From Ignavibacteriota bacterium (GTDB taxonomy: Bacteria > Bacteroidota > Ignavibacteria > UBA10030 > UBA6906), in NCBI GenBank assembly GCA_003154425.1, contig PMDK01000085.1, positions 60,204-95,184 of the forward strand: a DNA stretch of 34,981 nucleotides, given 5' to 3'. The notes beneath the pieces are model-generated. The model ran no database searches and was not told the DNA's origin. It saw only the letters and a list, made by a program, of their open reading frames with translations. Made by a program: the position numbers and the translations under genes. Positions 2-34,981 of this stretch are shown here, piece after piece; the first letter of the stretch is position 1; each line of letters opens with the position of its first letter.

Positions 2-424
2 ATCGAGCTGGCCGGTGAAATCAACGCGGGGATGCCCGACTTCGTCGTGCACTGCGTCATGGAGGCGCTCAACACGCTCGGGAAGCCCCTGAAGGGGGCA
101 AAGATTCTGATGCTCGGACTGGCATACAAGGCGAACGTTGACGATGACCGCGAGTCGCCTTCGTACCATCTGATGCAGAAGCTGGAGGAGCGCGGTGCCG
201 TGGTCAGCTACAACGATCCGTACATCCCCGTGATCCGTCCGTCGCGTGAATTCTCCAACTACGCGGGGAGGAAATCCGTGCCGGTCGGGAAGGGATTCGA
301 TCTGATACTGATCTCCACGCCCCACGATGAGTACAAGACAATGGACCTGACCGGACTCAATATCCCCATTGTTGACACGCGGAACGTGGTCAAAGGTTCG
401 AGCCCGCTGGTGTTCAGAGCGTGA
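2..424 (+). CDS. UDP-N-acetyl-hexosamine 6-dehydrogenase (WbpA-like), 3' part only
   Basis: The reading frame is open from the first bases of the window, so the gene starts upstream and only about 140 C-terminal residues are present. They read through IELAGEIN at the end of the central domain into the C-terminal UDP-binding domain, which contains LGLAYKANVDDDRESPS. That is the hallmark of the UDP-glucose/GDP-mannose dehydrogenase family, and the variant here is closest to the WbpA/WecC group that oxidises C6 of UDP-GlcNAc or UDP-ManNAc. The family makes UDP-HexNAc uronic acids with 2 NAD+ in the cytoplasm. The catalytic Cys and the N-terminal Rossmann domain lie outside the window. A UDP-GlcNAc 2-epimerase at 26583 could provide UDP-ManNAc, so the choice between GlcNAcA and ManNAcA is open. 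The family call is firm; the exact substrate is inferred. Confidence 0.9.
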   Translation: MELAGEINAGMPDFVVHCVMEALNTLGKPLKGAKILMLGLAYKANVDDDRESPSYHLMQKLEERGAVVSYNDPYIPVIRPSREFSNYAGRKSVPVGKGFDLILISTPHDEYKTMDLTGLNIPIVDTRNVVKGSSPLVFRA

Positions 425-476
425 CCGCCGCCCGTCCGGCACATGGACGATCCATCAGGCACCGGAAGAGCGCGTG

Positions 477-3400
477 ATGGGAATTCCGCCACCCACAGGT
501 CCCGGAGGCACGCCCTCCGGGCGCCCAATCCCCCGGCGTGACCGCCAGGATTCGGCCCTGGTGCCGTCGTTCGCGCAGCAGCGGCTCTGGTTTCTGGACC
601 GCCTTGAGCGCGGGAGCGCCGCGTATAATATCCCGCGACTGTACAGGATCCGGGGGAGGCTGGAGCCCTCCGTTGTGGAGCGGTGCGTCGGTGAGATTGT
701 GCGGAGGCACCAGATTCTGACGGCGGTGATCGCGGGGGAGGGGGAGCCGGTGCTTACGCTGACGGAGAATCCGCACGATGTGTTTCGTGTCGAGGAGGTG
801 CCGGGGAGCAGTGCCAGGGATCGGGAAGAAACGGGGAGGCGCAGAGTGGATGAAGAGGCCCGCCGTCCGTTCGACCTGACGGCGGGGCCGCTGGTGCGCG
901 TTCTGCTGCTGCGCCTGGGGGAGGAAGACCAGCTGCTGTTGATCGTGATGCACCATATTGTCTCAGACGGGTGGTCGGTGGGGATTTTTGTCAGGGAGAT
1001 GGGGGAATTGTACGGAGCGTTCGCCGCCGGGCGGGCGAGCCCGTTGAACGATCTGCCGGTTCAGTATGCCGACTTTGCCGTGTGGCAGCGGGAGCGGCTT
1101 CAGGGGGAGTTCCTTGCCGAGCAGATGCGGTACTGGCGCACCGAACTGGGGGGAGCGTTGCCGGTGCTGGATCTGAGCACCGACCATCAGCGGCCGGGGA
1201 CGAGACGGTCGCTTGGCGCGACGTACAGGTTCGTGGTGCGCAGGGAGGTGATCGAGGGGTTGAAATCGCTGAGCCGCAGGGAGGGGTGCACACTCTTTAT
1301 GACGCTGCTCGCGGCCTACGGCGTGCTGCTGCACCGTTACAGCGACCAGGACGAGGTCATCATCGGGACGCCGATTGCCGGGAGGACGCGGGTTGAGACG
1401 GAGGAACTGATCGGGTTGTTCGTGAACACGCTCCCCATCCGGGTCGACTGCGGCGGCAGGCCGACGTTTCAGGAGCTGCTCAAGCGTGTCCGCGCCCGGG
1501 CGCTCGGGGCGTATGAACATCAGGAGGTGCCGTTCGAGAAAATCGTGGAGGAGGTGCAGCCCGAGAGGTCGCTCAGCCGGACCCCGGTCTTTCAGACGTT
1601 GTTCGTCCTTCAGAACACCCCGGCTCCCGCCATGAACGTAACGGGAGTGCGGGCGACGAAGGAGGAGATCGACACCGGGACGGCGAAATTTGACCTGACG
1701 ATGTCGATTACGGAGACCGGAGACCAGGGCGAAGGGCTGCTGGAATATGACACGGATCTCTTTGAGCACGCCACCGTCGTGCGGATGGCCCGGCACTACG
1801 GGATGCTGCTGGATGAAGTGCTCGAAAGTGCGGGGAGGCGGATCTCGGAATACTCGATACTCACCCCGCACGAGCGTCATCAGGTGTTGAGGGAGTGGAA
1901 TCGCCCGGATGCCGCCCCTGTTGCCGGCGAATGCCTCCACCGGTTCTTCGAATCACAGGCGGCGCTGGCGCCCGCTAAGACCGCGCTCGTCTGGGAATCC
2001 GACCGTGTGTCGTACGCTGAATTGAATGAGCGGGCCAACCGCCTGGCGCACTATCTGCAGCGCCACGGGGTCGGGCCGGAGGTCATGGTCGCCGTCTGCA
2101 TGGAACGGTCGACCGCTCTGATCGTGGCCCTCCTGGCCGTGAGCAAGGCCGGCGGCGCGTTCGTCGCGCTGGATCCTTCCTATCCGCCTGAGAGGAATGC
2201 GTTCCTCGTCAGCGATTCCGGGGCGGCGCTCGTCCTGACACAGGCCCGCGCGCGCGATCGTTTTCCCTTCCTGGCGCGCACTCCGGCTGTGCAGGTTCTC
2301 TCTGTCGAGGCGGATGATCCTCTGCTCCGGACGGAAGAAAGCGGGAACCCCGCATGCGCGGCGACAGGCGGGAGCCTTGCGTACATCATTTACACGTCGG
2401 GCTCCGCCGGCAGGCCGAAAGCGGTGGCGATTGAACACCGGCACACGACGGTGCTGATCGAATGGGCACGGGGAGTCTACAGCCCGGAAGAACTTGACGG
2501 GGTGCTTGCCTCGACGTCGGTGTGTTTCGACCTCTCGATATTCGAGATCTTTGTCCCGTTGAGTCTGGGGGGAAAGGTCGTTCTGGCCGAGAACGTCCTG
2601 CAGCTCCCTGCCCTGCGCGCGGCGAAGGAGATCACGCTGTTGAACACCGTCCCTTCGGCGATGAACGAACTGCTGCGCATCGACGGGGTTCCGCCGTCGG
2701 TGAGAACCGTCAACCTCGCGGGCGAGCCGCTGACGCAGGCGCTCGTGCGGCGCATCTACGGCCTGGGATTTGTGCGCAAAGTGTATGATCTCTACGGCCC
2801 GTCGGAGGACACGACCTATTCGACGTTCGCGTTGCGGGCTCCGGACGGCCCTCAGACGATCGGCCGTCCGTTGACGGGCAAACGCGTCTATGTTCTCGAT
2901 CGGAATCGTCAGCTTGTTCCCGTGGGAGTGAAGGGTGAAATATATATCGGGGGCGGCGGCGTGGCCCGCGGCTATCTCGGGCGGGCAGAACTTACGCAGG
3001 AACGCTTTGTGAAGGACCCGTTCTCGGATGATCCCGGCGCCCGTCTCTATCGTACCGGCGATATAGGGCGTTTGCTTTCGGACGGGACCATCGAGTTTCT
3101 GGGCCGCATGGATGGCCAGGTGAAGCTCCGGGGATACCGTATCGAGCCGGGGGAGATAGAAAGCGTTCTCGGCGCGCTCGCCGGAGTCCGGGACGCGGCT
3201 GTCATCGTCCGCGAGGACGTGGCGGGCTTCAGGCGCCTGGTCGCTTATGTCGTTCCCGGGGAAGGACACCCCAGGTCCGGCGGAGAGCTGCGGTCGGTCC
3301 TGAAGGGGATGCTCCCGGAGTATATGGTTCCATCGGTGGTCGTGATGCTGCAGGCGCTCCCGCTGCTGCCGAACGGGAAGGTCGACAGGACTGCGCTCCC

Positions 3401-3725
3401 CGCGCCGGAGGGAGTGCCCGATCCCGGCGCCGGGGGAACCTCTGCGGCTCCCCGCACGCACGTCGAGAAGGTCATAGCGGACATCTGGAAATCTGTGCTG
3501 GGGGGAAAGGGAGTCGGCGTGCAGGATGATTTTTTCGATCTCGGGGGGCACTCATTGCTGGCAACGCAGGTGATCTCCAGGATCCGCGAATCGCTCCACG
3601 TCAATCTCCCGTTGATCAGCCTGTTCGAGTCTCCGACAGTCGAAGCGCTTGCAGCCGTCGTCGAAGGAAGCCTTCGCCGGGAGGTCGAAAGAAAGCGACA
3701 CAGTCCGGAGCCCCTCTCATCGTGA
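477..3725 (+). CDS. Nonribosomal peptide synthetase module, C-A-T (predicted alanine)
   Basis: The start is ATG 477, preceded by GGAAG; the frame is open further upstream, but that part overlaps the dehydrogenase gene and has no family similarity. The protein has 1082 residues. The condensation domain (about 30-450) carries the intact active-site motif HHIVSDG at 159-165. The adenylation domain (about 480-985) has the A3 loop IIYTSGSAGRPK near 635, YGPSE near 772, RTGD, and the A10 lysine K968. The carrier domain has LGGHS with the phosphopantetheine serine at S1026. Aligning by eye with GrsA gives the specificity residues D-L-F-N-N-A-L-T-Y-K, which I recall as a code reported for alanine-activating modules. 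There is no thioesterase or epimerase domain, so its product must pass to another protein, presumably the C-A-T-TE protein at 6499. A condensation domain at the front means an upstream acyl or aminoacyl donor is needed; the A-T protein just downstream is the obvious candidate. Confidence 0.93.
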   Translation: MGIPPPTGPGGTPSGRPIPRRDRQDSALVPSFAQQRLWFLDRLERGSAAYNIPRLYRIRGRLEPSVVERCVGEIVRRHQILTAVIAGEGEPVLTLTENPHDVFRVEEVPGSSARDREETGRRRVDEEARRPFDLTAGPLVRVLLLRLGEEDQLLLIVMHHIVSDGWSVGIFVREMGELYGAFAAGRASPLNDLPVQYADFAVWQRERLQGEFLAEQMRYWRTELGGALPVLDLSTDHQRPGTRRSLGATYRFVVRREVIEGLKSLSRREGCTLFMTLLAAYGVLLHRYSDQDEVIIGTPIAGRTRVETEELIGLFVNTLPIRVDCGGRPTFQELLKRVRARALGAYEHQEVPFEKIVEEVQPERSLSRTPVFQTLFVLQNTPAPAMNVTGVRATKEEIDTGTAKFDLTMSITETGDQGEGLLEYDTDLFEHATVVRMARHYGMLLDEVLESAGRRISEYSILTPHERHQVLREWNRPDAAPVAGECLHRFFESQAALAPAKTALVWESDRVSYAELNERANRLAHYLQRHGVGPEVMVAVCMERSTALIVALLAVSKAGGAFVALDPSYPPERNAFLVSDSGAALVLTQARARDRFPFLARTPAVQVLSVEADDPLLRTEESGNPACAATGGSLAYIIYTSGSAGRPKAVAIEHRHTTVLIEWARGVYSPEELDGVLASTSVCFDLSIFEIFVPLSLGGKVVLAENVLQLPALRAAKEITLLNTVPSAMNELLRIDGVPPSVRTVNLAGEPLTQALVRRIYGLGFVRKVYDLYGPSEDTTYSTFALRAPDGPQTIGRPLTGKRVYVLDRNRQLVPVGVKGEIYIGGGGVARGYLGRAELTQERFVKDPFSDDPGARLYRTGDIGRLLSDGTIEFLGRMDGQVKLRGYRIEPGEIESVLGALAGVRDAAVIVREDVAGFRRLVAYVVPGEGHPRSGGELRSVLKGMLPEYMVPSVVVMLQALPLLPNGKVDRTALPAPEGVPDPGAGGTSAAPRTHVEKVIADIWKSVLGGKGVGVQDDFFDLGGHSLLATQVISRIRESLHVNLPLISLFESPTVEALAAVVEGSLRREVERKRHSPEPLSS

Positions 3726-3816
3726 GGGAGTAGACCGGCGTTTCATCGGGAGCACGGCTGTGCAGGGCCGTCTCCCGGGCCGTCCGAAGAACATCAGCGG
3801 GGATCGCTTGTCCACA

Positions 3817-5655
3817 ATGTATGCTCTCTTCGCGCAGCAGGCTGCGCTCAGGCCGCGGGAGACAGCCCTGGCCGCACCCGCCCGCCCGCCGTTGTCCTTC
3901 GGGGATCTCATGACGCTCGTCGATGGTGTCGCCGGCATCCTGTCCGCGATGGGCGTTGAGAGGCACGATCGCGTGGCTGTTGCCCTCCCGACCTCCGCCG
4001 AGCGGCTGGTCGTCCAGGCTGCGGTGTCCTGCTGGTGCGCCGCCGCTCCGATCAACCCCGCACTCCGTCCCGGCGAGATCGAGGCTCTGTTATCCCGCCT
4101 GGGCATCAGACTGGTCATCGTTCCGTCCGGTGAAAACTCGGCGGCCCTCGCCGCGGCGCACAATCTCGGCATCGCAAGCCTCGAGCTCACTCCCCTCCCG
4201 GGTGCGCCGGCGGGGATGGCCCGCCTCGGCGCGGCTGACGTGCTGGGGGCGGGGGCGCAGGCCGGTCGCCGCGGTGCGGGCGCCGGCCCGGAAGATATCG
4301 CGCTCCTTCTGCCGACCTCCGGGACGACAGGGAGTCCCAAGATTGTTCCTCTGTCCCAGGCAAATGTGTGCGCGGGCGCGGCCAACATCGTCCGGGCGAT
4401 GAACCTGGGTCCGGGGGACCGGTTGCTCAGTCTGGCGCAGCTTCACCATATCGCGGGGATCAGCCTCACGCTGGCGGCCCTGAGTGCCGGGGGGAGCGTG
4501 TACTGCACGCCGGGTTTCCATGCCCCTGATTTCTTCCCGTGGATGGAAGAAGCGGATCCAACCTGGTTGTGGGTGGCGCCGGCGATGCTCCATGAAATCG
4601 TGGGGCGGGCGGCAGCTTACCAGGAAGTGCTTGCACGATCGCGGCTGCGATTGATCAGGGTCGGATCCGCGCCTCTTGCGGAGAGGTTGAGGGCGGAAGC
4701 CGAAGAGCTTCTTCACGTCCCCGTGCTGGAGAACTACGGCATGACGGAGGCGGCGCCGCAGATTGCCAGTACTCCCCTCCCCCCCGGGAAGCGAAAGAGG
4801 GGATCCGTAGGCCTCCCGGTCGGCGTGGAAGTGGAGATCGAAGGGGAAGGGGGAACATTCCTCCCCAGGGGGTCGGCGGGAGAAATCGTAATCCGGGGTC
4901 CAAGCGTCATGGGCTGCTACCTGGGAGGAGAGGACGCCGCCGACGGGTCGTTCGTCCGGGGCTGGTTCAGGACGGGAGACCAGGGCTACCTCGACGAGGA
5001 GGGATACCTCTTTCTTACCGGGAGGATCAAAGAGATCATCAACCGCGGCGGCGAGAAAATCTCTCCGCTGGAAGTCGACGGCGTTCTCCTCAGGCATCCG
5101 GAAGTGGAGAAAGCGGTGACGTTCCCCATCCCGCATCCGTCTCTGGGAGAAGAGATTGCCGCCGCCGTCGTCCTGCGTCCGGGGCGTGCCGTCACTGAGC
5201 AGGAATTGCAGGAATTTGTTGTCCGCGAACTTTCCGTGTCGAAAGTGCCGCGGCGCGTGGTGATCCTCGAGGAGATCCCCTCGGATGAACGGGGCAAAGT
5301 CCGGCGGCTCAGGATGGCGGAACAGCTCGGTCTGACGCGGCCGGCATCCGTCTCCGGTGACCGGCCGTCCGGCGATGACGCCGCCCCGCGGACCCCCGTT
5401 GAGCGCGATCTCGCAGCGATGTGGAAGGACGTTCTGAGGCTGAAGGAAGGGGAGGTCCTGACGAACGCCCGCTTTCTGGATCTGGGGGGGGATTCGATAT
5501 CGGCTGTCCTGATCATCTCCCGCGTCCGCGGTTCCTTCAACGTGGACCTTTCCCCCGTGACTTTTTTCGAAGCTCCGACGATCGCCGGGCTCGCCCGGAT
5601 CATCGAAGAGAAACTCGGATCGGGGCCGGTTGCCGGCCCGCAGCCGGAAGGTTGA
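3817..5655 (+). CDS. Stand-alone acyl-activating enzyme with C-terminal carrier domain (A-T)
   Basis: This is an adenylate-forming enzyme of the acyl-CoA synthetase type (FadD or oxalate-CoA-ligase-like) fused to a phosphopantetheine carrier domain, 612 residues. The P-loop TSGTTGSPK is at 167-175, YGMTEAAP lies near 307, TGD has D388, RIKEIINRGGEK follows, and the C-terminal catalytic lysine is probably K494. The carrier motif LGGDS carries S560. Its acyl-CoA-synthetase-like motifs suggest it loads a carboxylic acid rather than an amino acid onto its own carrier, making it a plausible starter for the condensation domain of the preceding NRPS. ATG 3817 was chosen because the family's N-terminus begins near there; TTG 3808 with a closer GGGGA is an alternative. 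The frame stays open upstream to 3649, but that part overlaps the previous gene by 77 bases. The substrate is not predictable by eye. Confidence 0.85.
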   Translation: MYALFAQQAALRPRETALAAPARPPLSFGDLMTLVDGVAGILSAMGVERHDRVAVALPTSAERLVVQAAVSCWCAAAPINPALRPGEIEALLSRLGIRLVIVPSGENSAALAAAHNLGIASLELTPLPGAPAGMARLGAADVLGAGAQAGRRGAGAGPEDIALLLPTSGTTGSPKIVPLSQANVCAGAANIVRAMNLGPGDRLLSLAQLHHIAGISLTLAALSAGGSVYCTPGFHAPDFFPWMEEADPTWLWVAPAMLHEIVGRAAAYQEVLARSRLRLIRVGSAPLAERLRAEAEELLHVPVLENYGMTEAAPQIASTPLPPGKRKRGSVGLPVGVEVEIEGEGGTFLPRGSAGEIVIRGPSVMGCYLGGEDAADGSFVRGWFRTGDQGYLDEEGYLFLTGRIKEIINRGGEKISPLEVDGVLLRHPEVEKAVTFPIPHPSLGEEIAAAVVLRPGRAVTEQELQEFVVRELSVSKVPRRVVILEEIPSDERGKVRRLRMAEQLGLTRPASVSGDRPSGDDAAPRTPVERDLAAMWKDVLRLKEGEVLTNARFLDLGGDSISAVLIISRVRGSFNVDLSPVTFFEAPTIAGLARIIEEKLGSGPVAGPQPEG

Positions 5656-5680
5656 AAATGTCCGGAAGGAAACTGACGTG

Positions 5681-6502
5681 ATGCCACTGGTGGACATCTG
5701 CCGCGCAGCTCCATGGGGGACGCTTCGCAGCACAGGGGGTGAATGGCTCCCCCTGCCGGCGCCGCTCCCGGCGGACCGGGACGAAATCCACGTATGGCGG
5801 GCCTGGTTGCCTGTTGATCGATCGCGGCTTGAATCGCTGGCGGGCGTGCTGGACAGGAGCGAAAGGGAAAAGGCCGGAATGTACCATTCGTCGCGGGACG
5901 GTGACAGGTACGTTGCTGCCCACGGTATGCTCAGAGAGTTACTGGCCTCCTACCTGGGGGTCGCTCCGGAGAGTATTGCTTACCGGTGCTCGGAGAGGGG
6001 GAAGCCTGACCTTGCGCATTCTCTTTCCGGGAGATCGCTTGGATTCAACATGACCCATTCTCTCGATGTCGCGTTGTTCGCGGTCGGGGAGTCCATAGAC
6101 CTGGGGGTTGACGTGGAATGCGTGTCGGGCGCTCTGGACATTGAAGAGTTGGGACGGGCCTGCCTTTCCGCCTGCGAGCGGGAGGCGCTGGATTCTCTTC
6201 CCGGCCGGGATCGGCGGGAGGCGTTATTCCAGTGGTGGACGCGCAAGGAGGCGGTCGCCAAGGCAGCGGGAGAAGGTCTCGCTGCTTCGTTTAAGCGGCT
6301 CTCTGTTATCCCGCCGTATCTTGAACATCCCGGCCTGGACCCGGGGGGGGAGCCCGCCGTGGAGAGGGATGAATGGAGCGTGTGGGACCTGACTCCGTGG
6401 CCGGGATATGTCGGGGCACTGGCCTCCCGGGGCGAGCGCAGGATGCTCCGCCTGTTCGAATTCCGCGCCCCGGCGGCGCACACCGGGAGGCGTGTTGCAT
6501 GA
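5681..6502 (+). CDS. 4'-phosphopantetheinyl transferase, Sfp type
   Basis: This enzyme transfers the phosphopantetheine arm of coenzyme A to the serine of carrier domains, turning apo-NRPS into holo-NRPS in the cytoplasm. The 273-residue length and motifs fit the Sfp/Gsp/HetI group: GKPDL and FNMTHS in the first half, GVDVE with metal ligands D144 and E146, and WWTRKEAVAKA with K189 and E190. The start at ATG 5681 follows GGAAGGA at a 10-base spacing (GTG 5678 is also possible). The frame is open back to 5630, which overlaps the end of the A-T gene. Its stop overlaps the ATG of the next NRPS gene (ATGA at 6499), so the two are probably translationally coupled. Its position between carrier-protein genes makes S1026, S560 and S1034 of the neighbours its likely targets. 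Confidence 0.93.
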   Translation: MPLVDICRAAPWGTLRSTGGEWLPLPAPLPADRDEIHVWRAWLPVDRSRLESLAGVLDRSEREKAGMYHSSRDGDRYVAAHGMLRELLASYLGVAPESIAYRCSERGKPDLAHSLSGRSLGFNMTHSLDVALFAVGESIDLGVDVECVSGALDIEELGRACLSACEREALDSLPGRDRREALFQWWTRKEAVAKAAGEGLAASFKRLSVIPPYLEHPGLDPGGEPAVERDEWSVWDLTPWPGYVGALASRGERRMLRLFEFRAPAAHTGRRVA

Positions 6503-9500
6503 GAAACGGCATGGACCACGAAATGCTGCAAAAGCGCATATCCCGGGGCGCCGTTGAAGGGGCTCCACCCCTTTCGTTCGCCCAGCAACGGCTCTGGTTC
6601 CTTGATCAGCTCGACCCGGGCAATTCCGCCTACAACGTTCCGGTGCTGCTCCGCGTCGACGGGCCGCTGAACATCGCGGTCCTGAAGCAGAGCGTTGAAG
6701 AAATCGTCCGCCGGCATGAAGCCCTGCGGACGGTCTTTCGTTCGACCGACGGCCAGCCCGTCCAGGAGATCCTCCCGCCCCGCTCTCTTGATCTCGCCGT
6801 GACGGATCTTCAGGCACTGCCCCCCGGTGACCGTGAAGCCCGGGGAGTGCATCTGGCGGGGGAAGAAGCGATGAAACCGTTTGACCTCTCCCGCGGGCCG
6901 ATGATACGTGTGAACCTGTGGCAGGTGGACGCGGAAGCGTTCCTGCTTCTCGTCACCATGCACCACATTTCCTCCGACGGGTGGTCGATCGGCGTCTTGA
7001 TGACGGAGCTCGTGTCTCTGTATGACGCCTACGTCGCGCAGAAGCCGTCACCGCTCCCGGATCTTGAAATCCAGTATGCGGATTACGCGGCCTGGCAGCG
7101 GTTGTGGCTCCAGGGGGAAGTCCTGGAGAGGCAGCTTTCGTACTGGAAGCGGCAGCTTGCGGGTGCTCCGCCCGTGCTTGAATTGCCGCCTGACCGGCCG
7201 CGTCCTGCAGTCCAGAACATGCGCGGCAGACAGCAGCCCGTGGTCCTCTCACGGGAGCTCACCGAAGGGTTGAAAGCCCTCAGCCGGAGGCACAACGTTA
7301 CGCTGTTCATGACATTGCTGGCAGCCTTCGAGACGCTGCTCCACCGGCATTCGGGCCAATCCGACATTCTCCTCGGCGTCCCTATCGCCGGACGCGTGAG
7401 GGCCGAAACGCAGGGGCTGATCGGTTTCTTTGTCAATACGCTGGTCATGAGGGCGGACTTCGCTGATGACCCGACATTCGCCGAGTTGCTGCGTCGCGTC
7501 CGGCGGACGTCGCTGGAGTCATTTGAGCATCAGGATCTTCCGTTTGAAAAGCTCGTCGAGGAACTCCATCCGGAACGGGACCCTTCGTACAACCCGCTGG
7601 TGCAGGTGATGTTTGCATTTGAGAACGCTCCGATGCCTGCCGCCCCTTCTCATGTGCTGAAGCTCCATCCTCTGAGAATCGAGAGCGGGACGACGAAATT
7701 CGATCTCACGCTGACGCTCTATGATGAAGACGGCTTGAGGGGCTTCTTTGAATATGCAAGCGACCTCTTTGATCCCGACACTATCCGCAGGATGGAAGGG
7801 CACTTCCAGACGATGCTGAGGGGCATCATCGCGGACCAGGAGCAGCGTGTGTCGATGCTCCCATTGCTGACTGAATCCGAGCGGCAGACTTTGATCGTCG
7901 ATTGGAACAGGGCCGGGACTGCCGCTCCGACGACGGCGACCGTGCAGGAGCTGTTTGAGGCGCAGGTGAACCGGACCCCCGATGCCGACGCCCTCGGGTT
8001 TGGGGACCGCCGCCTGACGTACCGGCAGTTGAACCGCTGGGCCAACCAGCTCTCGCATGCGCTCCGGGCGCAGGGGGTGGGACCGGAGGTCCCCGTTGCA
8101 CTGTGCATGGAGCAGTCTCTTGAAATGATGATGGCGGTGATCGGCATATTCAAGTCCGGAGGGGCGTACGTCCCGGTCGATCCGCAGAATCCCCCCGAGC
8201 GCATCGCGTTCATCCTCACCGATACCCGCCCGGCGGTGATCCTGACTCAGCGCGCGTTGCTCGATCGCCTGCCGGCGGTCCCCGGCAGGGTGCTGTGCAT
8301 AGAACCGGATTTCTCATTCCCCGGTCCGGATTCCGGAGAGAACCTCCCGCTGGAAGTAACGCCTGACAATCTGGCGTATGTGATCTACACCTCCGGTTCG
8401 ACAGGCAAACCCAAGGGGGTGCAGATCACCCACAGGGCGCTTGCGATACACTCTCTGGAGACTGTTCAATGCTACGGGTTATGCCCGACGGACAGGATGC
8501 TCCAGTTTTTCTCTCTGAGCTTTGACGCTTCCCTCGAACAGATCTTCCCTCCGCTTATCTGCGGCGCGATGGTCATGGTGCGGGATGTGGAAGTCTGGAG
8601 TCCCGCGGAGGCCTACCGCAAGGTGGGTGAATTGGGGCTGACAGTCCTGCACATGTCCACCGCCTACTGGCACGAACTGGCACAGGGCTGGAGTTCCCTG
8701 CCCGGACCATCGCTGCGCCTTCGTCTCGTTCTCGTCGGGGGGGAAGCGATGATGCGGGCCAGCGTGGATCTGTGGCAGCAGGGTCCCACGGAGGGAGTGC
8801 GTTTGCTGAACGCCTACGGTCCCACCGAGACCACTATCGCTGCGACCACGTATGAGGTCCCCGCGCGGGACCCGAAGACGGCCGCCGTGGCGGCCCGGGG
8901 GATTCCCATCGGCAAGCGGCGTGGGGACAGATCCCTTTACATTCTGGACGGCCACCGACAGCCCGTCCCGATAGGCGTTGCCGGCGAGCTGTACATCGGC
9001 GGTGATACTGTCTCGCGCGGCTATCTCAACAGACCCGAGCTGAACGAGCAGGTGTTTCTACCCGATCATCTCTCGGGGACTCCCGGGAAACGTCTGTACA
9101 GGACAGGCGACAGGGCGAGGTTCCTTGCCGGCGGCGACGTCGAATTCCTGGGACGCAACGATTCGCAGATCAAGATCCGAGGGTTTCGCGTTGAGCTCGG
9201 TGAAATCGAGAGCGCCCTCGTCAGCCATCCCTCGGTGGCCGAGTCCGCCGTCCTCGTCGCAGGGGAAGGCGGCGTTGAGAAAATGCTGGTGGCGTATATC
9301 GTCTGGAAAGAGGGTGCCGCTGCGTCGACTGCGGAGGTGCGCGCCTACCTGGGGGACCGGCTCCCCGGTTACATGGTTCCGTCCGTTTACGTCCCCCTCA
9401 AGGCCATGCCGCTGACGTCGAACGCCAAGATAGACCGGCGTGCTCTCCCGGCCCCGGACGCTTCGAAGGTGGAACGTGTGACCGACTACATCGCCCCGCG

Positions 9501-10614
9501 TGACCCCCTTGAACAGCAACTGACGAATATATGGCAGAAGCTTTTCGAGAAACGACCGATCGGTGTCCGGGATAACTTTTTCGAACTCGGGGGGCACTCG
9601 CTCATGGCGGTGCGCCTCTTCTCGCAGGTGGAGAGGCTGACAAAGAAGACATTGCCCCTGGTGACCCTGTTCCAGGCTCCTACAATAGAACGGTTGGCGG
9701 GCGTCTTGCGCCAGCAGGGGTGGGAGGCGCCGTTCTCGTCGCTGGTCCCCATCAAACCGGGAGGCTCGCGCCCTCCCTTTTATTGCGTGCACGGGGTGGG
9801 GGGGAATATCCTCGAGTTTGAGCACTTCTCGCGCTATATCGATCCTGACCAGCCGCTCTACGGGCTGCAGGCTCAGGGACTCGATGGGAAGCGCCCCCGG
9901 CATTCGAGCGTGGAAAAGATGGCCGAGCATTACATCGCCGAGATCCGTCAGTTTCAGCCTGAAGGTCCCTACTATCTGGGCGGATCCTCATTCGGGGGGA
10001 TGGTGGCGTTCGAGATGGCGCAGCAGCTGAACGCGGGGGGGCAGGGGGTGGGTCTGCTCGTTCTGTTCGACACGAATGCCCCGGGCTACCCCAGATACCT
10101 CCCGACGACTACCTCGCTGAAGAGGATGTTTGACCACATGAGATTCAGGGTGGAACTGCACTGGGGGAATATCAAAGTCGCCCGGCCTGCGATCCGGCGG
10201 GAGTACATCGTAGCGAAATCGAAAAGATTCGTGAAGCAGTACAGGGCCAAAATAAAGCACAAATCGCGCGGGGCCGTCAAGAGCCTGCGGGAGAGGATTC
10301 TCCCGCGGGCGATACGTCAGGTTCAGAAGGGTGGGCATCAGGCGCAGAGGAAGTACGAAGCGCGGCCGTACCCCGGCAAAGTGACGCTTTTCAGGGCGAC
10401 GGAACAGCCCTACGGAGTCATCCCGGATCCGGCAAACGGGTGGGGACGATTCTGCCCGGGCGGGCTGGAGATCCTCGACATTCCGGGGCATCACGGCGCG
10501 ATCATGCGGGAGCCCCGCGCACAGTATCTTGTGAAAACGCTCATGGACTGCCTCACGAAGGCGCAATCGGGCGCGCATGGACGAGCGGGCGAACACCAGA
10601 AAGGAGACTCATAG
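6499..10614 (+). CDS. Nonribosomal peptide synthetase terminal module, C-A-T-TE
   Basis: This 1371-residue protein holds one elongation module and a release domain. The condensation domain (about 20-450) has HHISSDG from residue 155. The adenylation domain (about 475-985) has VIYTSGSTGKPKG near 630, NAYGPTETT near 771 and A10 lysine K977. The carrier serine is S1034 in LGGHS. The type I thioesterase (about 1085-1360) shows GSSFG with nucleophile S1164, probable acid D1191 and histidine H1332. By-eye specificity residues are D-A-E-H-L-G-A-I-A-K, which I cannot assign to an amino acid. Between the acid and the histidine is a strongly basic lid segment (about 1207-1294). The start ATG overlaps the PPTase stop (ATGA), and its stop overlaps the GTG of kdsD by one base. 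As the only protein here with a thioesterase, it should be the last step of the assembly line. Confidence 0.94.
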   Translation: MRNGMDHEMLQKRISRGAVEGAPPLSFAQQRLWFLDQLDPGNSAYNVPVLLRVDGPLNIAVLKQSVEEIVRRHEALRTVFRSTDGQPVQEILPPRSLDLAVTDLQALPPGDREARGVHLAGEEAMKPFDLSRGPMIRVNLWQVDAEAFLLLVTMHHISSDGWSIGVLMTELVSLYDAYVAQKPSPLPDLEIQYADYAAWQRLWLQGEVLERQLSYWKRQLAGAPPVLELPPDRPRPAVQNMRGRQQPVVLSRELTEGLKALSRRHNVTLFMTLLAAFETLLHRHSGQSDILLGVPIAGRVRAETQGLIGFFVNTLVMRADFADDPTFAELLRRVRRTSLESFEHQDLPFEKLVEELHPERDPSYNPLVQVMFAFENAPMPAAPSHVLKLHPLRIESGTTKFDLTLTLYDEDGLRGFFEYASDLFDPDTIRRMEGHFQTMLRGIIADQEQRVSMLPLLTESERQTLIVDWNRAGTAAPTTATVQELFEAQVNRTPDADALGFGDRRLTYRQLNRWANQLSHALRAQGVGPEVPVALCMEQSLEMMMAVIGIFKSGGAYVPVDPQNPPERIAFILTDTRPAVILTQRALLDRLPAVPGRVLCIEPDFSFPGPDSGENLPLEVTPDNLAYVIYTSGSTGKPKGVQITHRALAIHSLETVQCYGLCPTDRMLQFFSLSFDASLEQIFPPLICGAMVMVRDVEVWSPAEAYRKVGELGLTVLHMSTAYWHELAQGWSSLPGPSLRLRLVLVGGEAMMRASVDLWQQGPTEGVRLLNAYGPTETTIAATTYEVPARDPKTAAVAARGIPIGKRRGDRSLYILDGHRQPVPIGVAGELYIGGDTVSRGYLNRPELNEQVFLPDHLSGTPGKRLYRTGDRARFLAGGDVEFLGRNDSQIKIRGFRVELGEIESALVSHPSVAESAVLVAGEGGVEKMLVAYIVWKEGAAASTAEVRAYLGDRLPGYMVPSVYVPLKAMPLTSNAKIDRRALPAPDASKVERVTDYIAPRDPLEQQLTNIWQKLFEKRPIGVRDNFFELGGHSLMAVRLFSQVERLTKKTLPLVTLFQAPTIERLAGVLRQQGWEAPFSSLVPIKPGGSRPPFYCVHGVGGNILEFEHFSRYIDPDQPLYGLQAQGLDGKRPRHSSVEKMAEHYIAEIRQFQPEGPYYLGGSSFGGMVAFEMAQQLNAGGQGVGLLVLFDTNAPGYPRYLPTTTSLKRMFDHMRFRVELHWGNIKVARPAIRREYIVAKSKRFVKQYRAKIKHKSRGAVKSLRERILPRAIRQVQKGGHQAQRKYEARPYPGKVTLFRATEQPYGVIPDPANGWGRFCPGGLEILDIPGHHGAIMREPRAQYLVKTLMDCLTKAQSGAHGRAGEHQKGDS

Positions 10615-11609
10615 TGCAAAGTGATCCGGTGATTGCATCGGGGGAAATCCTCGACGTTGCCAGGGCCACGCTCCTCGCCGAGGCCGAAGCGATTCGGGTG
10701 GCCGCCGGGCGGATTGACGAAACGATGGCGCGGGCCGTGCAGTTGATTCTCTCGAGCAGCGGCAAGGTCATTGTCCTCGGCATGGGGAAATCGGGGCAGA
10801 TCGGTCAGAAAATCGCCGCGACGCTCTGCAGCACGGGAACCCCCTCCGTGTTTCTGCGCGCGGCCGAGGCGACGCACGGGGACCTGGGCATATACACGCC
10901 GGGCGATCCGTCAATTCTGATATCGAAGAGCGGAGCGACGGCGGAGCTCGTGAACCTGATACCGACATTGCGGCAGTTCAGAACCCCGCTGATCGGGATC
11001 CTGGGGAACCTGACGTCACCGCTTGCGCGTCAGGTGGATGTCGTGCTCGATGCGCGGGTCGCACGGGAAGCGGATCCCCTGAATCTCGCCCCCACATCGA
11101 GCACCACGGTGGCGCTTGCCCTGGGCGACGCGCTGGCCGCGGCGTTGATGCAGGTGCGGCGGTTCAGCGACGAGGATTTTGCGCGCTACCATCCCTCGGG
11201 CCAGCTTGGACGGAACGTCCTTCTTCATGTTGCCGATGTCATGCATGCCGGCGAGGATGTCGCCTGGGTATCCCCCGCGGACAGCCTGCGCAAGGTCGTG
11301 ATTGCGATGTCCCGGCATCCGTTGGGCGCCGCATGCGTTGTGAATGAAGGAATGGAGTTGGCCGGTATCATCACCGATGGGGACCTGCGGCGCGCACTCC
11401 AGGCTCACGACGATATCCGGCCGCTGAGCGCAGCGGACATCATGACCGCCCACCCGATATCGGTGTCTCCGTCCGCTGCGCTGAAAGATGCCGCGCACAT
11501 CATGGAGGACAGGCCGTCGCAGATTTCCGTGCTGCCTGTCATCGACGAAGGACTGCACTGCGTCGGACTCCTGCGCATCCACGATATCTACCAGACCGGC
11601 CTGACGTAG
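10614..11609 (+). CDS. kdsD: D-arabinose 5-phosphate isomerase, KdsD/KpsF type
   Basis: The enzyme interconverts ribulose 5-phosphate and arabinose 5-phosphate, the first step to Kdo, the inner-core sugar of LPS and a linker sugar in some capsules. The 331-residue protein has an N-terminal SIS sugar isomerase domain with GMGKSGQIGQKIA around residues 55-67 and AEATHGDLG, followed by two C-terminal CBS domains. This is the full KdsD/KpsF layout, and E. coli KdsD is of similar size. The start is GTG 10614: AGGAG lies 7-8 bases upstream, the family N-terminus begins there, and it overlaps the NRPS stop by one base. That coupling puts a Kdo-pathway enzyme in the same transcript as the NRPS. Since KdsD and KpsF (GutQ) share motifs, it may be either the housekeeping enzyme or a cluster-specific copy. 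Confidence 0.93.
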   Translation: MQSDPVIASGEILDVARATLLAEAEAIRVAAGRIDETMARAVQLILSSSGKVIVLGMGKSGQIGQKIAATLCSTGTPSVFLRAAEATHGDLGIYTPGDPSILISKSGATAELVNLIPTLRQFRTPLIGILGNLTSPLARQVDVVLDARVAREADPLNLAPTSSTTVALALGDALAAALMQVRRFSDEDFARYHPSGQLGRNVLLHVADVMHAGEDVAWVSPADSLRKVVIAMSRHPLGAACVVNEGMELAGIITDGDLRRALQAHDDIRPLSAADIMTAHPISVSPSAALKDAAHIMEDRPSQISVLPVIDEGLHCVGLLRIHDIYQTGLT

Positions 11610-29855: not shown

Positions 29856-30461
29856 ATGCTCAAGCGGTTGTTTGACGTCCTTGCTTCGCTCCTGGGTTTG
29901 ATAGTACTCTCCCCGGTGCTCGTTGCCACTGCGGCAGGGATTCTCATCCTGTCGCCCGGCCCGGTTCTCTACCGGGCGGCGAGGGTCGGGAAGGGGGGAC
30001 GGGTTTTCACGATGTACAAGTTCCGGACAATGGTGGTCGATGCGGACAAGAACGGACCGCTCATCACGGCCTCGGGAGATCGGCGCGTGACGTCGATCGG
30101 CCGGTTCCTCCGCAAGACCAAGCTGGACGAGCTCCCGACGATCTGGAATGTCCTCATGGGGCAGATGAGCTTCGTGGGGCCCAGGCCGGAGAACCCCCTG
30201 TCGGCCTCACAGTACAACGAAGAACAACGCAGGATCTGGTGGGTGCGCCCGGGGGTGACGAGCCTGGCGACTATCAAGTACCGGCACGAGGAATCACTTC
30301 TGGGGGGAGCGGGGGAACTCGAATCCCGCTATTTCGAGGTCATGCAGGACAAGCTCCGCATGGAATTGGAGTACGTTGATCATCACCCGTTCTCGATGGA
30401 TCTGGCGATACTCTTTCGGACCATTCACGCAATTTTTAAAACTGAGGTTCCAGGTGCGTAA
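29856..30461 (+). CDS. Initiating phosphoglycosyl transferase (monotopic, PglC-like)
   Basis: This 201-residue sugar transferase attaches the first sugar-1-phosphate to undecaprenyl phosphate at the inner membrane. It has one N-terminal hydrophobic segment (about 7-34, a re-entrant helix in PglC), then FTMYKFRTMVVDAD, SIGRFLRKTKLDELPTIWNV with the catalytic pair D91/E92, and MSFVGPRPE. The length is that of the minimal PglC/WcaJ catalytic domain, lacking the four-helix N-terminal part of WbaP. A membrane domain resembling such an N-terminal part occurs instead in the protein at 31645. The PglC subgroup often uses UDP-diNAcBac or UDP-GalNAc-type donors, which would fit the sugar aminotransferase directly downstream, but this is inference. 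Confidence 0.92.
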   Translation: MLKRLFDVLASLLGLIVLSPVLVATAAGILILSPGPVLYRAARVGKGGRVFTMYKFRTMVVDADKNGPLITASGDRRVTSIGRFLRKTKLDELPTIWNVLMGQMSFVGPRPENPLSASQYNEEQRRIWWVRPGVTSLATIKYRHEESLLGGAGELESRYFEVMQDKLRMELEYVDHHPFSMDLAILFRTIHAIFKTEVPGA

Positions 30462-31632
30462 GACGTTCCTTCCATTTTCGCTGCCGACGATTGGTGAAGA
30501 GGAAATCGCGGAAGTTGTTGACGCGCTTCGTTCCGGATGGGTGACCACCGGGCCGAAGACCAAACGGTTTGAGGAGCAGCTGGCGGCGTACGTCGGGACG
30601 GGGTTGGCCCTTGCGGTCAATTCCTGCACCGCGGGTCTGCATATCGCGCTCTCGGCGCTCGGCATCCGTCCGGGCGACGAGGTGATCGTTCCTACCCTCA
30701 CGTTTTGCTCGACGGCAAACGTCGTCGTGCATCTGGGTGCCCGGCCGGTGTTCGTCGACGTCGGGGAGGACTTCAATGTCACGGCCGGCGCCATCGAGGC
30801 CGCGATCACGCCCCGGACGAAGGCGATCATGCCGGTGCACTTCGGCGGTCAGTCGTGCGATCTTGACAAGATCTATGCCGTTGCCGCCGCGCACAACCTC
30901 CCGGTTGTCGAGGACGCCGCGCACGCCATCGGCAGCTCGTACCACGGTATGAAACTGGGGTCGGACGCCCTCTCCTCCCGGGGGATCCGGCGGGCGACGG
31001 TATTCTCGTTCTATGCGACCAAGAACATGACCACCGGGGAAGGTGGCATGATCACGACGGACGATCAGGACCTTGCTGACAGGATGCGGCTGTACGCCCT
31101 CCACGGGATGAGCCGGGACGCCTGGAAACGGTACACCAGCGCAGGGTCATGGTTCTACGAAGTGGTCGTCCCGGGATACAAGGACAACATGACCGACATC
31201 CAGTCGGCGATGGGGATCCACCAGCTGCGCAAACTCGACGGTTTCATCGCGACGCGGCAGCGGTACGCCGGGATCTACGACCGGGCGTTCTCCGGTCTTG
31301 CGGAGGTCGCCACGCCGATCGTGCATCCGGACAGGAATAACGTTTACCATCTGTACGTGCTGCGGCTGAATCTCGAAAAGCTGACCATCGACCGGTCGCA
31401 GTTCATCGAGGAGCTGAGGGCGCGGAATATCGGCGCCAGCGTTCATTTCATACCCGTGCATATGCATCCATTTTACCGGGACACGTTCGGCTACAGGAAG
31501 GGATCGTATCCGGTGTCCGAAAAGCTGTACGAGCAGATCCTCTCGCTGCCGCTCTTTCCCGGAATGATTGAAAGCGATGTGCAGGACGTCATCGCCGCGG
31601 TCGGGGATATTATTGCGCAACACAACCATTAA
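30454..31632 (+). CDS. Sugar aminotransferase, DegT/DnrJ/EryC1 family (ArnB/PglE-like)
   Basis: This PLP enzyme transfers an amino group from glutamate to a keto-sugar nucleotide. The 392-residue protein begins RKTFLPFSLPTIGEEEI and has SGWVTTGPKTKRFEEQLA, VEDAAHAIGSSYHG and the PLP lysine K190 in FYATKNMTTGEGG. The opening and the GWVTTGP element are closest to 4-aminotransferases of the ArnB/PglE/PseC type. The start is GTG 30454, with GAGG 6 bases before it and the family N-terminus right after; it overlaps the preceding stop by 8 bases. Extending to ATG 30376 would overlap far more and adds unrelated residues. A 4-keto sugar substrate could come from RmlB (34426) or from the SDR protein at 31645. 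Confidence 0.92.
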   Translation: MRKTFLPFSLPTIGEEEIAEVVDALRSGWVTTGPKTKRFEEQLAAYVGTGLALAVNSCTAGLHIALSALGIRPGDEVIVPTLTFCSTANVVVHLGARPVFVDVGEDFNVTAGAIEAAITPRTKAIMPVHFGGQSCDLDKIYAVAAAHNLPVVEDAAHAIGSSYHGMKLGSDALSSRGIRRATVFSFYATKNMTTGEGGMITTDDQDLADRMRLYALHGMSRDAWKRYTSAGSWFYEVVVPGYKDNMTDIQSAMGIHQLRKLDGFIATRQRYAGIYDRAFSGLAEVATPIVHPDRNNVYHLYVLRLNLEKLTIDRSQFIEELRARNIGASVHFIPVHMHPFYRDTFGYRKGSYPVSEKLYEQILSLPLFPGMIESDVQDVIAAVGDIIAQHNH

Positions 31633-31644
31633 CAGGGGGATATC

Positions 31645-33633
31645 ATGGTTTGGAAAAAGTTGGTTCCCAGGCGTCCGTCGTCAGAAGTTGTGCTTCGGGT
31701 TGTTGCGGACGCGGTCCTGGTCAACGCAGCGCTTGCCCTCAGCTTCATGGGCCGTTTCCTCACGTTTTTCCTGCTGAGGGAAGAGGAGCTCATATCGAAT
31801 CGAACGTACATGGGACTCTTCTCGGAGTCTCTGATGGGGATCGAGCATTCTGCGGGGCTGCTCACGGTCATCTCCCTGATCGTGTTCTGGATGAGCGGGT
31901 TCTACACGTACGGGCGCGCGTACCAGAGCAAATACAAGCTGCTCATCGTGTTCCAGGCGGTGAGCCTCTCGTTTCTGATCTTCGTCGTGTGCTCCTTCTT
32001 CGTCCCGTTCGTCACGCCGTTCCCCCGCAGCATGCTGTTCGGGTCATGGCTCCTGAGTCTTGTCCTGTTGATCTTCTCGCGTGTCTGGTCGTATCTGTGG
32101 ACGCGTGCGACGATAAACGGGAAGAACGCGACGGACGACCGCAAGGGGACCAAGAACGTGCTGGTGATCGGCGGGGCGGGCTACATCGGGTCGATCTTTG
32201 TGAGAAAGCTCCTGGCCAAAGGGTATAACGTCAAGGTCCTGGATGCGCTGATTTACGGCGATGAGGGGATCCGGGAACTGTACGGGACGCCGCATTTCGA
32301 CTTCATCAAAGGCGACCTGCGCGATATCGAAGCCGTGGTCGGTGCGATGCAGGGAATCGATTCCGTCGTGCATCTGGGAGCCCTGGTGGGGGACCCGGCC
32401 TGCGCGATTGATGAAAAGCTGACACTCGAGATCAACCTGGCCGCGACCCGGATGATATGCGAAGTTGCGAAAGGGTACGGCGTGCAGAGGTTCATCTTTG
32501 CGTCGACCTGCAGCGTTTATGGAGCGAGTGATGAGCTCCTGAACGAGCGGTCCGCGCTGAATCCGGTCTCGCTGTATGCGCGCTCGAAGATCGCTTCGGA
32601 AGAGGTCGTCCTCCACACGCTGGACGAACGATTCGCGCCGACGATCGTCCGTTTTGCGACGATATTCGGGATGTCGCCGCGGCCCCGGTTTGATCTCGTC
32701 GTCAATTTTCTCACCGCCCGCGCGGTCGCGGACGGTTCGATCACGATCATGGGCGGAGACCAGTGGAGGCCGTTCCTCCACGTTGCCGATGCCGCGGAGT
32801 CGCTCCTCCGGTGCCTCGAGACACCCCCGCACGCTGTACGGGGAGAGATCCTCAACGTCGGTTCGGACGCGGAGAACTACCAGATCACGCAGATCGGGAA
32901 TCTCATCAAGCAGGTCGTGCCCGACGTGAAGGTGATCACCGCCGGCGGTGCGGATGCCGATCGGCGGAACTACCGGGTGTCATTCAAGAAGTTCGTGGAC
33001 CGCGTCGGATTCGTCCCGTCGAGGACAGTCCCCTCGGGTATCGAGGAGATCCTCGACGCGATCAAGAGCGGCGTGATTGACAACTATCTCAATCCGAAGT
33101 ACAACAACCACAAGACGCTGACGGCAGACGGCATGACGGGACGGATCCAGCGGACCAACTCGTGGACCCCTCTCTACCAGGACAGCATGGACGACGCGCT
33201 CCTGCAGCCCGGGCGCACGAAGCACGGCAGGAAAGAATCGGTGCTCGTCATCGACGACGATGAGATGCACCTGGTGCTCATGCAGAACATACTCGAGCTG
33301 GAAGAATACGAGCTGTTCAAGGCCGCGGACGGCCCGACCGGGATCGCCATCTTCAAGGAGCGGCATCCGGACGTTGTGTTGCTGGACCTCGGACTCGTGG
33401 GGATGCAGGGGCTCGACGTGTTGAAGGAGCTCCGCCGGGTCGAACCGAATGCGAGGATCATCATCGTCACCGGCCATGGATCGCTCGAGTCCCAGGAAGC
33501 CTTCCGGCACGGGGCATGGGATTACCTCCGGAAGCCGTTTGACGTCGCGGAACTGCTCGCGAAGGTCAGAAGCGCCGCCGACAAGCGGGCGCCGACTCCG
33601 CCGCCGGCATTGCCCGCCATGAAACCCGCGTGA
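31645..33633 (+). CDS. Membrane domain + NAD-dependent sugar epimerase + receiver domain fusion
   Basis: This single uninterrupted frame of 662 residues joins three parts. Residues 1-155 hold about four hydrophobic helices (near 20-43, 70-87, 99-123, 130-150), like the membrane part of FlaA1/PglF or WbaP proteins. Residues 170-480 form an extended SDR nucleotide-sugar epimerase/dehydratase: GGAGYIG at 176-182, ASTCSVYGAS at 286-295, Y311/K315, and GDQWRPFLHVADAA. Residues 532-645 form a response-regulator receiver domain: acidic residues D537-D539, phospho-acceptor D581 in LLDLGL, T609 and K630 all in place. A hydrophilic linker precedes it; in-frame ATG 33187 (M515) behind AGGA could give a free receiver. 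No output or kinase domain is present. Each domain is clear; the combination is unusual, and what it does together is unknown. Confidence 0.88.
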   Translation: MVWKKLVPRRPSSEVVLRVVADAVLVNAALALSFMGRFLTFFLLREEELISNRTYMGLFSESLMGIEHSAGLLTVISLIVFWMSGFYTYGRAYQSKYKLLIVFQAVSLSFLIFVVCSFFVPFVTPFPRSMLFGSWLLSLVLLIFSRVWSYLWTRATINGKNATDDRKGTKNVLVIGGAGYIGSIFVRKLLAKGYNVKVLDALIYGDEGIRELYGTPHFDFIKGDLRDIEAVVGAMQGIDSVVHLGALVGDPACAIDEKLTLEINLAATRMICEVAKGYGVQRFIFASTCSVYGASDELLNERSALNPVSLYARSKIASEEVVLHTLDERFAPTIVRFATIFGMSPRPRFDLVVNFLTARAVADGSITIMGGDQWRPFLHVADAAESLLRCLETPPHAVRGEILNVGSDAENYQITQIGNLIKQVVPDVKVITAGGADADRRNYRVSFKKFVDRVGFVPSRTVPSGIEEILDAIKSGVIDNYLNPKYNNHKTLTADGMTGRIQRTNSWTPLYQDSMDDALLQPGRTKHGRKESVLVIDDDEMHLVLMQNILELEEYELFKAADGPTGIAIFKERHPDVVLLDLGLVGMQGLDVLKELRRVEPNARIIIVTGHGSLESQEAFRHGAWDYLRKPFDVAELLAKVRSAADKRAPTPPPALPAMKPA

Positions 33634-33667
33634 TGGGGACCTGAAATTCCCCCGTTGCGCCGACGTT

Positions 33668-33702
33668 GCGCGAGGCCCTGGATCGTCTCCGGGGCCTCGC
33701 GC
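33668..33702 (+). terminator. Hairpin, possible transcription terminator
   Basis: GCGCGAGGCCC (33668-33678) is perfectly complementary to GGGCCTCGCGC (33692-33702), an 11-bp stem with a 13-base loop, 35 bases after the epimerase-receiver stop. The following GTTGTATGCC has no T-run, so it is not a canonical intrinsic terminator; it might act with Rho or as a 3' end stabiliser. Confidence 0.4.
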
Positions 33703-33731
33703 GTTGTATGCCCGGCATGGCGCGCGCGATG

Positions 33732-33760
33732 TTGACTTTCCCCCCCGAAATTGATAAATT
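33732..33760 (+). promoter_or_regulatory. Sigma70-like promoter with C7 in the spacer
   Basis: TTGACT (33732-33737) and TAAATT (33755-33760) are separated by 17 bases. They match the -35 and -10 consensus at 5 and 4 of 6 positions. Seven C (33740-33746) lie in the spacer. The start of transcription would be near 33767, leaving a leader of about 180 bases before the RmlC-like gene. Confidence 0.45.
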
Positions 33761-33947: not shown

Positions 33948-34421
33948 ATGTTTACGAACGGGACGATTCAGGACGTGATTCTGCGCGACCTGACGAAATT
34001 CAAGGACGACCGGGGGTGGCTGACGGAGCTCTTCCGGAAGGACGAGATCCCTGCAGAACTGTATCCGGCGATGGGGTATGTTTCGATGACGGAGCCGGGA
34101 GTGACGCGGGGTCCTCATGAGCACGCCGACCAGGCCGACTGCTTCGCATTCCTCGGGCCCTCCAATTTCAGGATCTGTCTCTGGGACAACCGGAACGCGT
34201 CCCCGACCTACATGACCCGTCAGATCGTTTTCGCCGGGGAGGATGCACCGAGGTCGCTCGTCATCCCGCGGGGGATCGTCCATGCATACAGGAATATCGG
34301 GGAACGGCAGGGGATGGTGCTGAACTTTCCCAACCGCCTCTATGCAGGAGAAGGGAAAAAGAAACCCGTGGATGAGATCCGGCATGAAATCGATCCGACT
34401 TCCATCTTCCTCATGGACTGA
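33948..34421 (+). CDS. RmlC-like dTDP-4-keto-sugar epimerase/isomerase (cupin)
   Basis: This 157-residue protein of the RmlC-like cupin family shows the N-terminal element DDRGWLTELFR, the active-site strand RGPHEH at 54-59 (R54 and H57 matching the Arg/His of the RmlC motif) and a C-terminal NFPNRLY...DEIRHEID pattern. RmlC converts dTDP-4-keto-6-deoxyglucose to the L-lyxo form; this version is shorter than the usual ~180-residue enzyme and could instead be a 3- or 5-epimerase or ketoisomerase variant. GGAAGGTGA lies directly upstream of ATG 33948. It is four bases ahead of rmlB, which supplies the keto sugar. No rmlA or rmlD is seen before the window ends. Confidence 0.8.
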   Translation: MFTNGTIQDVILRDLTKFKDDRGWLTELFRKDEIPAELYPAMGYVSMTEPGVTRGPHEHADQADCFAFLGPSNFRICLWDNRNASPTYMTRQIVFAGEDAPRSLVIPRGIVHAYRNIGERQGMVLNFPNRLYAGEGKKKPVDEIRHEIDPTSIFLMD

Positions 34422-34425
34422 GACG

Positions 34426-34981
34426 ATGCGCTCTCTGCTTGTCACAGGCGGTGCCGGGTTCATCGGGAGCAATTTCGTCCGCTACTTCCTTGAATCACAT
34501 CCCGGGGTCCGCCTTGTCAATTTCGACAAGCTGACCTACGCGGGGAACCTGGACAATCTCCGGGATGTCCAGGACCACGACCGCTACGCATTCGTCCGTG
34601 GGGACATCTGCGACAGGGACGCGGTTCAGGGGACGATGAAGAAACATGCGATTGACGCCGTGGTGCATTTTGCCGCGGAGTCTCACGTCGACAGGAGCAT
34701 CCACGGTGCCGCCGTCTTCGTTGCGACAAACGTGCTCGGCACGCAGATTCTCCTCGATGCGGCGCGCGAACAGGGCGTCGAGAGGTTCCTGCATGTCTCC
34801 ACCGACGAAGTGTACGGGTCTCTGGGAGCGGGGGGGAAATTCACGGAATCCACTCCGCTCCACCCGAACAGTCCGTACGCCGCGAGCAAGGCGGGATCTG
34901 ACCTGCTTGTCCTTGCCGCCGCTCACACGTTCGGCTTCCCCGCCCTTATCACGCGATGCTCCAACAACTACGGGCCCTACC
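34426..34981 (+). CDS. rmlB: dTDP-glucose 4,6-dehydratase, 5' part only
   Basis: The first 185 residues are present and the gene runs off the right edge. The frame contains VTGGAGFIGSNFVRY at 6-20, FDKLTYAGNLDNL, FAAESHVDRSI, the catalytic STDEVYGS with D127/E128, and the Y151/K155 pair in YAASKAGSD. These together are specific to RmlB rather than general epimerases. The enzyme removes water from dTDP-glucose to give dTDP-4-keto-6-deoxyglucose, the branch point to rhamnose and many amino- and deoxy-sugars. It starts four bases after the RmlC-like gene and is probably co-transcribed from the promoter at 33732. Confidence 0.95.
   Translation, partial: MRSLLVTGGAGFIGSNFVRYFLESHPGVRLVNFDKLTYAGNLDNLRDVQDHDRYAFVRGDICDRDAVQGTMKKHAIDAVVHFAAESHVDRSIHGAAVFVATNVLGTQILLDAAREQGVERFLHVSTDEVYGSLGAGGKFTESTPLHPNSPYAASKAGSDLLVLAAAHTFGFPALITRCSNNYGPY

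Follow-up and report, generated by a model that had tools for sequence, protein, structure and literature searches.

The window, the whole stretch of 34,981 nucleotides analyzed here, is part of contig C209 (111,730 bases) and carries an exopolysaccharide (EPS) cluster that is syntenic with those of three genomes of the same genus (G001 to G003). The EPS genes are immediately preceded by an NRPS block (369-10614), which is built of C-A-PCP, A-PCP, and C-A-PCP-TE together with a phosphopantetheinyl transferase gene. After this block follow genes for glycosyltransferases, Wzy, a UDP-GlcNAc 2-epimerase, an SDR, a phosphoglycosyl transferase (PGT), a DegT aminotransferase, and the fused gene considered here, with a cupin, RmlB, Wza, Wzz, and a second Wzy-like gene on its 3' side. 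A protein with a SIS domain and two CBS domains, the arrangement of arabinose-5-phosphate isomerases (KdsD-like), is encoded at 10440-11609.

Domain matches place a small monotopic PGT (PF02397, PglC-like), a possible target of the receiver described below, at 29856-30461 and a DegT/DnrJ/EryC1 aminotransferase in a PglE-like position at 30376-31632, both on the plus strand like all features that follow. The DegT frame as listed overlaps the PGT gene, and its real start probably lies later. On the 3' side of the fused gene, folding reveals a strong hairpin with a 16-bp stem and no T run (33667-33703), which may mark an operon end; a scan of the window for T-run terminators found nothing above chance and did not pick up this hairpin. 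A motif scan and sequence similarity point to a promoter-like site of the next operon at 33732-33760, which is kept in the sister genomes. This operon includes a dTDP-sugar isomerase-like cupin (33948-34421; 79 to 90% identity in G001 to G003), a conserved backbone gene, and an RmlB-like SDR (34342-34980), assigned to the backbone by domain match and synteny, which extends past the window edge. DNA similarity resumes at 33731, with 87% to G001 and 77% to G002, and is patchy to the left of this position (64 to 74% to G001). This step suggests that the fused gene is probably the right end of a divergent left-hand cassette, directly after which the conserved backbone operon begins. The step itself is likely the border of an exchanged EPS cassette.

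The fused gene (31645-33633), delineated by its reading frame, Pfam, a residue check, and codon statistics, is one open frame of 662 amino acids from ATG to stop with no internal stop codon, as the sequence-only reading had it. Its product consists of four transmembrane helices, an extended SDR, and a receiver, in that order. The N-terminal membrane bundle covers residues 1 to 165 (31645-32139), with helices at residues 13 to 44, 52 to 88, 98 to 118, and 128 to 162 in the AlphaFold2 model; hydrophobic regions agree with the model and bear out the earlier count of about four helices. PF13727, the cytoplasmic domain of WbaP/PglF, stays below the Pfam cutoff (E = 0.029), and this match falls on residues 84 to 158 of the membrane part. 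The SDR catalytic domain extends over residues 172 to 488 (32158-33108) and shows a pLDDT of ≥90 along most of its length. PF01370 (NAD-dependent epimerase/dehydratase) spans residues 172 to 406 with an E value of 3.4e-45 and 154.8 bits, versus 38.3 bits for PF02719. The linker, residues 494 to 531 (33124-33237), is predicted to be disordered (pLDDT 31 to 36) yet is coding. The receiver, residues 533 to 645 (33241-33579), matches PF00072 over residues 533 to 642 (E = 2.5e-26), contains its acidic residues within VIDDDE (residues 535 to 540), and, when modeled alone with its stand-alone relatives, adopts a (βα)5 fold with a mean pLDDT of 86.8. The phospho-acceptor D581, the switch residue T609, and K630 are all present, as in response regulators with an enzymatic output, and the enzyme domain and the receiver are encoded, at the gene level, as one polypeptide in one frame. 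The motif GGAGYIG and the pair Y311/K315 of the YxxxK signature are likewise found as first noticed. With its predicted disorder, the linker gives no sign of a fixed interface between SDR and receiver.

The enzyme had been described as a complete NAD-dependent epimerase; the SDR domain is indeed there, and it is the epimerase identity that is not supported. The nearest solved structure is the nucleotide-sugar C4-dehydrogenase Cj1427 (PDB 6vo6), with a sequence E value of 9.6e-49 and a fold TM-score on the target of 0.91 to 0.94, and the Cj1427-like C4-dehydrogenases show the closest relationship in both sequence and fold. Judged by this relationship, the domain does not count as a classical epimerase, and "epimerase" is only the name of the Pfam family, unproven as an activity. 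Cj1427 yields a 4-keto sugar, and its tightly bound NADH is renewed to NAD with α-ketoglutarate (PMC10680097); the solved protein lacks a membrane bundle and a receiver, both of which the window protein contains. Because of this likeness and of the neighboring DegT aminotransferase and PGT, the simplest reading of the family and its context is that the SDR would oxidize C4 to give a 4-keto sugar for amination by the DegT enzyme. By gene order, the SDR with its DegT and PGT neighbors holds a PglF-like position. The PglF/WbpM/CapD enzymes (PF13727 plus PF02719) share with the window protein the N-terminal four-helix bundle and the place beside DegT and PGT genes, and the corresponding position in G001 to G003 is held by a PglF-type enzyme. 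The window protein differs from them in that PF13727 is missing, PF01370 rather than PF02719 is the best match, and a receiver is added.

All three sister genomes encode the receiver separately: its gene starts at an ATG, is set off by a spacer, and lies directly 3' of that for the PglF-type membrane dehydratase. The gene order in G003 is GT2, DegT, SDR, PGT, PglF-type dehydratase (PF13727 plus PF02719), stand-alone receiver, cupin, RmlB, Wza, and Wzz. This raises the question of whether two adjacent genes were merged by an assembly or sequencing error. The source genome is a draft assembly of 351 contigs with 85.5% completeness and is the sole genome among those searched that shows the fusion, and a stop-free linker is by itself weak evidence, since 44% of shuffled linkers contain no stop either. 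Codon usage is more informative: the 38 linker codons (residues 494 to 531) score 0.53 log-odds per codon in frame, compared with 0.51 ± 0.22 for the genes of the window and −0.67 ± 0.31 for off-frames, and 0 of 508 overlapping intergenic segments match the linker score (maximum, 0.33). The linker is thus gene-like in its codon usage. In G001 and G003, the upstream gene ends in its stop codon, a spacer follows, and the receiver then opens with ATG-CCG-AGG-GTG/GTA-CTT; the window reads AAA-GAA-TCG-GTG-CTC at the orthologous receiver start, with AAA at the ATG position. The loss of both stop and start together with a coding-like linker is not expected from a single base-calling error. The genes on either side of the frame match one EPS locus syntenic with G001 to G003, and the only sharp change in similarity to these genomes lies at 33731, outside the frame, so that doubt over an assembly join inside it appears reduced, though not eliminated. 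An artifact is therefore considered quite improbable.

The same stretch bears on the proposal that the gene yields two products, the fusion and a separate receiver translated from GTG 33241 or ATG 33187. An AGGA-type sequence lies 8 nt upstream of GTG 33241, which itself is three codons past the site where the stand-alone orthologues have their ATG, and the sequence AGGAAAG followed by this GTG (33229-33243) is a putative internal start. Against this, the orthologous ATG position is occupied by AAA, the linker codons appear to be translated in frame, and a promoter search upstream of the receiver gave no match. A promoter-like TTG-N-TAnnTT motif is found upstream of the receiver in G002, G010, and G020 and has no match at this place in G001, G003, or the window, a comparison that is only suggestive. 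A second product is accordingly regarded as improbable.

The three-domain order was not found in genome contigs by a pattern search with a sensitivity suited to close relatives, nor in viral contigs, and no plasmid record covered 80% of it. It was likewise not found in 100 relatives, 98 genomes of the order, 391 genomes of the class, 114 genomes of the order to which G131 belongs, or phylum samples of 396 genomes; these sets overlap, the larger searches scored the best few candidates per genome, and the two phylum draws of 396 gave identical counts and are probably one and the same sample. Long frames in G012, G017, and G313 were examined and contain no fusion, and a 664-residue frame in G707 has the order four transmembrane helices, PF13727, and SDR, with no receiver. 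Literature searches turned up no direct description of a receiver fused to an epimerase or another SDR. The proposed search for the same domain order has thus returned relatives of the four-helix SDR and of the receiver and the complete order in none of the other genomes searched. The sequence-only reading had named homologues in which enzyme and receiver are always separate genes as an observation that would speak against it. This is the arrangement in the relatives, and it makes the fusion lineage-specific rather than removing it. On the combined evidence of codon usage and gene order, the fusion is taken to be genuine, lineage-specific, and translational.

Both halves have relatives of their own. 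Two other membrane-SDR homologues were found, both lacking the receiver: a protein of 546 amino acids with 45% identity in G061, whose gene adjoins a DegT gene, and one of 507 amino acids with 52% identity in G131, whose gene is preceded by PglC-, PglD-, and DegT-like genes. Other SDRs of the same subfamily carry different N-terminal modules. CBS-type modules are present in L120 (PF00571 above the cutoff), L037 (just below the cutoff), and L038 (by alignment to L037), which might indicate a possible sensing of adenylates or other nucleotides. L129 from G707 is a Cj1427-like SDR with four transmembrane helices and PF13727 at its N terminus, as is typical of PglF and large PGTs. From the CBS-type and the PF13727-bearing N termini, the uptake of accessory modules is a habit of this SDR family, which counts in favor of the fusion. 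L079 and L080 show a Rossmann-like N terminus, and in L079, L080, and L129, the YxxxK of the SDR is replaced by YxxxR (SLYARTR).

The receiver falls into an orthogroup of stand-alone receivers that is present across the order and is separated from three other receivers of its own genome with a tree support of 99/98. Its identity with the same-genus receivers is 56 to 57%, against 85 to 91% among those receivers themselves; it lies on a long branch and lacks one residue near helix α4. The notion that the receiver was simply inherited with the downstream backbone genes is weakened by these values, as cupin and RmlB are 78 to 90% identical to those of the sisters, and also by the break in DNA similarity at 33731. 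The long branch, the identity below that of the backbone, and the α4 deletion suggest that the signaling face of the receiver may have changed. The long branch and the deletion would also fit a receiver that was fused by chance when the EPS cassette was swapped by recombination and that is now drifting, in agreement with the similarity break at 33731. The intact phosphorylation and switch residues, the normal coding statistics, and the confident receiver fold (pLDDT 86.8) argue against such decay and render it extremely unlikely.

The closest mechanistic precedent for the fused receiver is EpsW of Myxococcus xanthus. This single-domain response regulator was shown in 2025 to activate, in its phosphorylated form, the EPS-initiating enzyme EpsZ posttranslationally, probably by favoring the EpsZ dimer (PMC12802240). 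Both systems comprise a receiver in an EPS pathway and a membrane enzyme of EPS initiation with a four-helix bundle. EpsW, however, is a separate protein whose partner is a large monoPGT, whereas the window receiver is covalently joined to a sugar-nucleotide SDR; it shares the EPS-locus location of the EpsW-like receivers, is stand-alone in the relatives examined, and is fused here. Receiver domains fused to small monoPGTs are also on record, as cited from O'Toole 2021 in PMC12802240. Further receivers joined to an enzyme domain are MTH_548, an archaeal fusion with a BcsA-like glycosyltransferase (PMC5847659), and PorX, in which a CheY-like domain is combined with a PglZ domain (PMC10951265). 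The archaeal fusions resemble that of the window in their narrow phyletic range, and the window protein differs from MTH_548 and PorX in enzyme class, in the C-terminal position of its receiver, and in being a membrane protein. Given EpsW, the receiver-monoPGT fusions cited there, and the BcsA-like fusions, the original description of this control as a novel switch for making polysaccharide goes too far; precedents are known for each element, this particular pairing excepted.

The reading favored here, with a probability of about 55%, is that of a membrane C4-oxidoreductase fused via a flexible linker to a receiver of the EPS locus that would act in an EpsW-like manner and gate EPS initiation. 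A four-helix SDR in a PglF-type position would have been joined to the receiver that formerly stood alone in this EPS locus. An unlinked histidine kinase would phosphorylate D581, and the phosphorylated receiver, held at the membrane, would work upon the attached machinery of EPS initiation. It would either shift the oligomerization or activity of the SDR to which it is fused or dock onto the adjacent PGT. The outcome would be a gated entry of the modified sugar into the EPS repeat units. The EpsW-like part is supported by the receivers of G001 to G003, which directly follow a PglF-type membrane enzyme in the same EPS locus; the C4-oxidoreductase part is supported by the 4-keto sugar, the product of the Cj1427 reaction, as a plausible substrate of the DegT aminotransferase. 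What we infer in this scheme is phosphorylation, its kinase, the target, and whether the effect is positive or negative. The kinase is probably unlinked, since no PF02518 (HATPase_c) match, the mark of a hybrid histidine kinase, exists in the fused protein, its neighborhood, or the whole of contig C209 (111,730 bases), and 41 such matches occur elsewhere in the genome. The earlier remark that the window contains no histidine kinase can hence be extended to the entire contig.

Direct control of the SDR by its receiver is plausible by analogy. In its strict form, phosphorylation of D581 would itself switch the C4-oxidoreductase and thereby control the committed supply of sugar for EPS, with the receiver replacing the nucleotide-sensing PF13727, which is absent here; this is a tentative possibility. 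Large PGTs and PglF-like dehydratases share the four-helix bundle and PF13727, a puzzling feature proposed to regulate both classes, and PF13727 of WbaP has been implicated in uridine nucleotide binding (PMC10942596).

A different view takes the fusion as real and the tether as accidental, the receiver retaining its stand-alone function, such as activation of a PGT in trans or a role as a phosphate sink, and the SDR remaining unregulated. It is consistent with the predicted flexibility of the linker and with the target of EpsW, which is a PGT and not a sugar-nucleotide enzyme (PMC12802240). The receiver, moreover, is already an EPS-locus gene in the sisters, and in several more distant genomes, stand-alone receivers of the orthogroup adjoin a family 2 glycosyltransferase and not an SDR. 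A covalent link to an irrelevant enzyme would carry a cost, however, and the frame, the linker, and both domains are apparently maintained; the sister receivers, too, directly follow the analogous membrane enzyme. An accidental tether is thus judged rather unlikely.

If the direct switching of the SDR by the fused receiver holds, a two-component system would set the committed EPS sugar supply at the level of the enzyme. The fusion here, together with the stand-alone receiver beside the analogous membrane dehydratase in the sisters, suggests that an EPS receiver occurs throughout the order and may be partnered with the membrane sugar-modifying enzyme. The fusion offers a one-gene construct for asking whether sugar-nucleotide enzymes are outputs of two-component systems and bears on the question of why PglF-like dehydratases and large PGTs have N-terminal domains in common (PMC10942596). 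Elsewhere in the orthogroup, receiver and membrane family 2 glycosyltransferase form a recurring pair: the glycosyltransferase gene immediately precedes those of the stand-alone receivers L137, L139, L144, and L148, several of which are in turn followed by a gene for a secreted protein.
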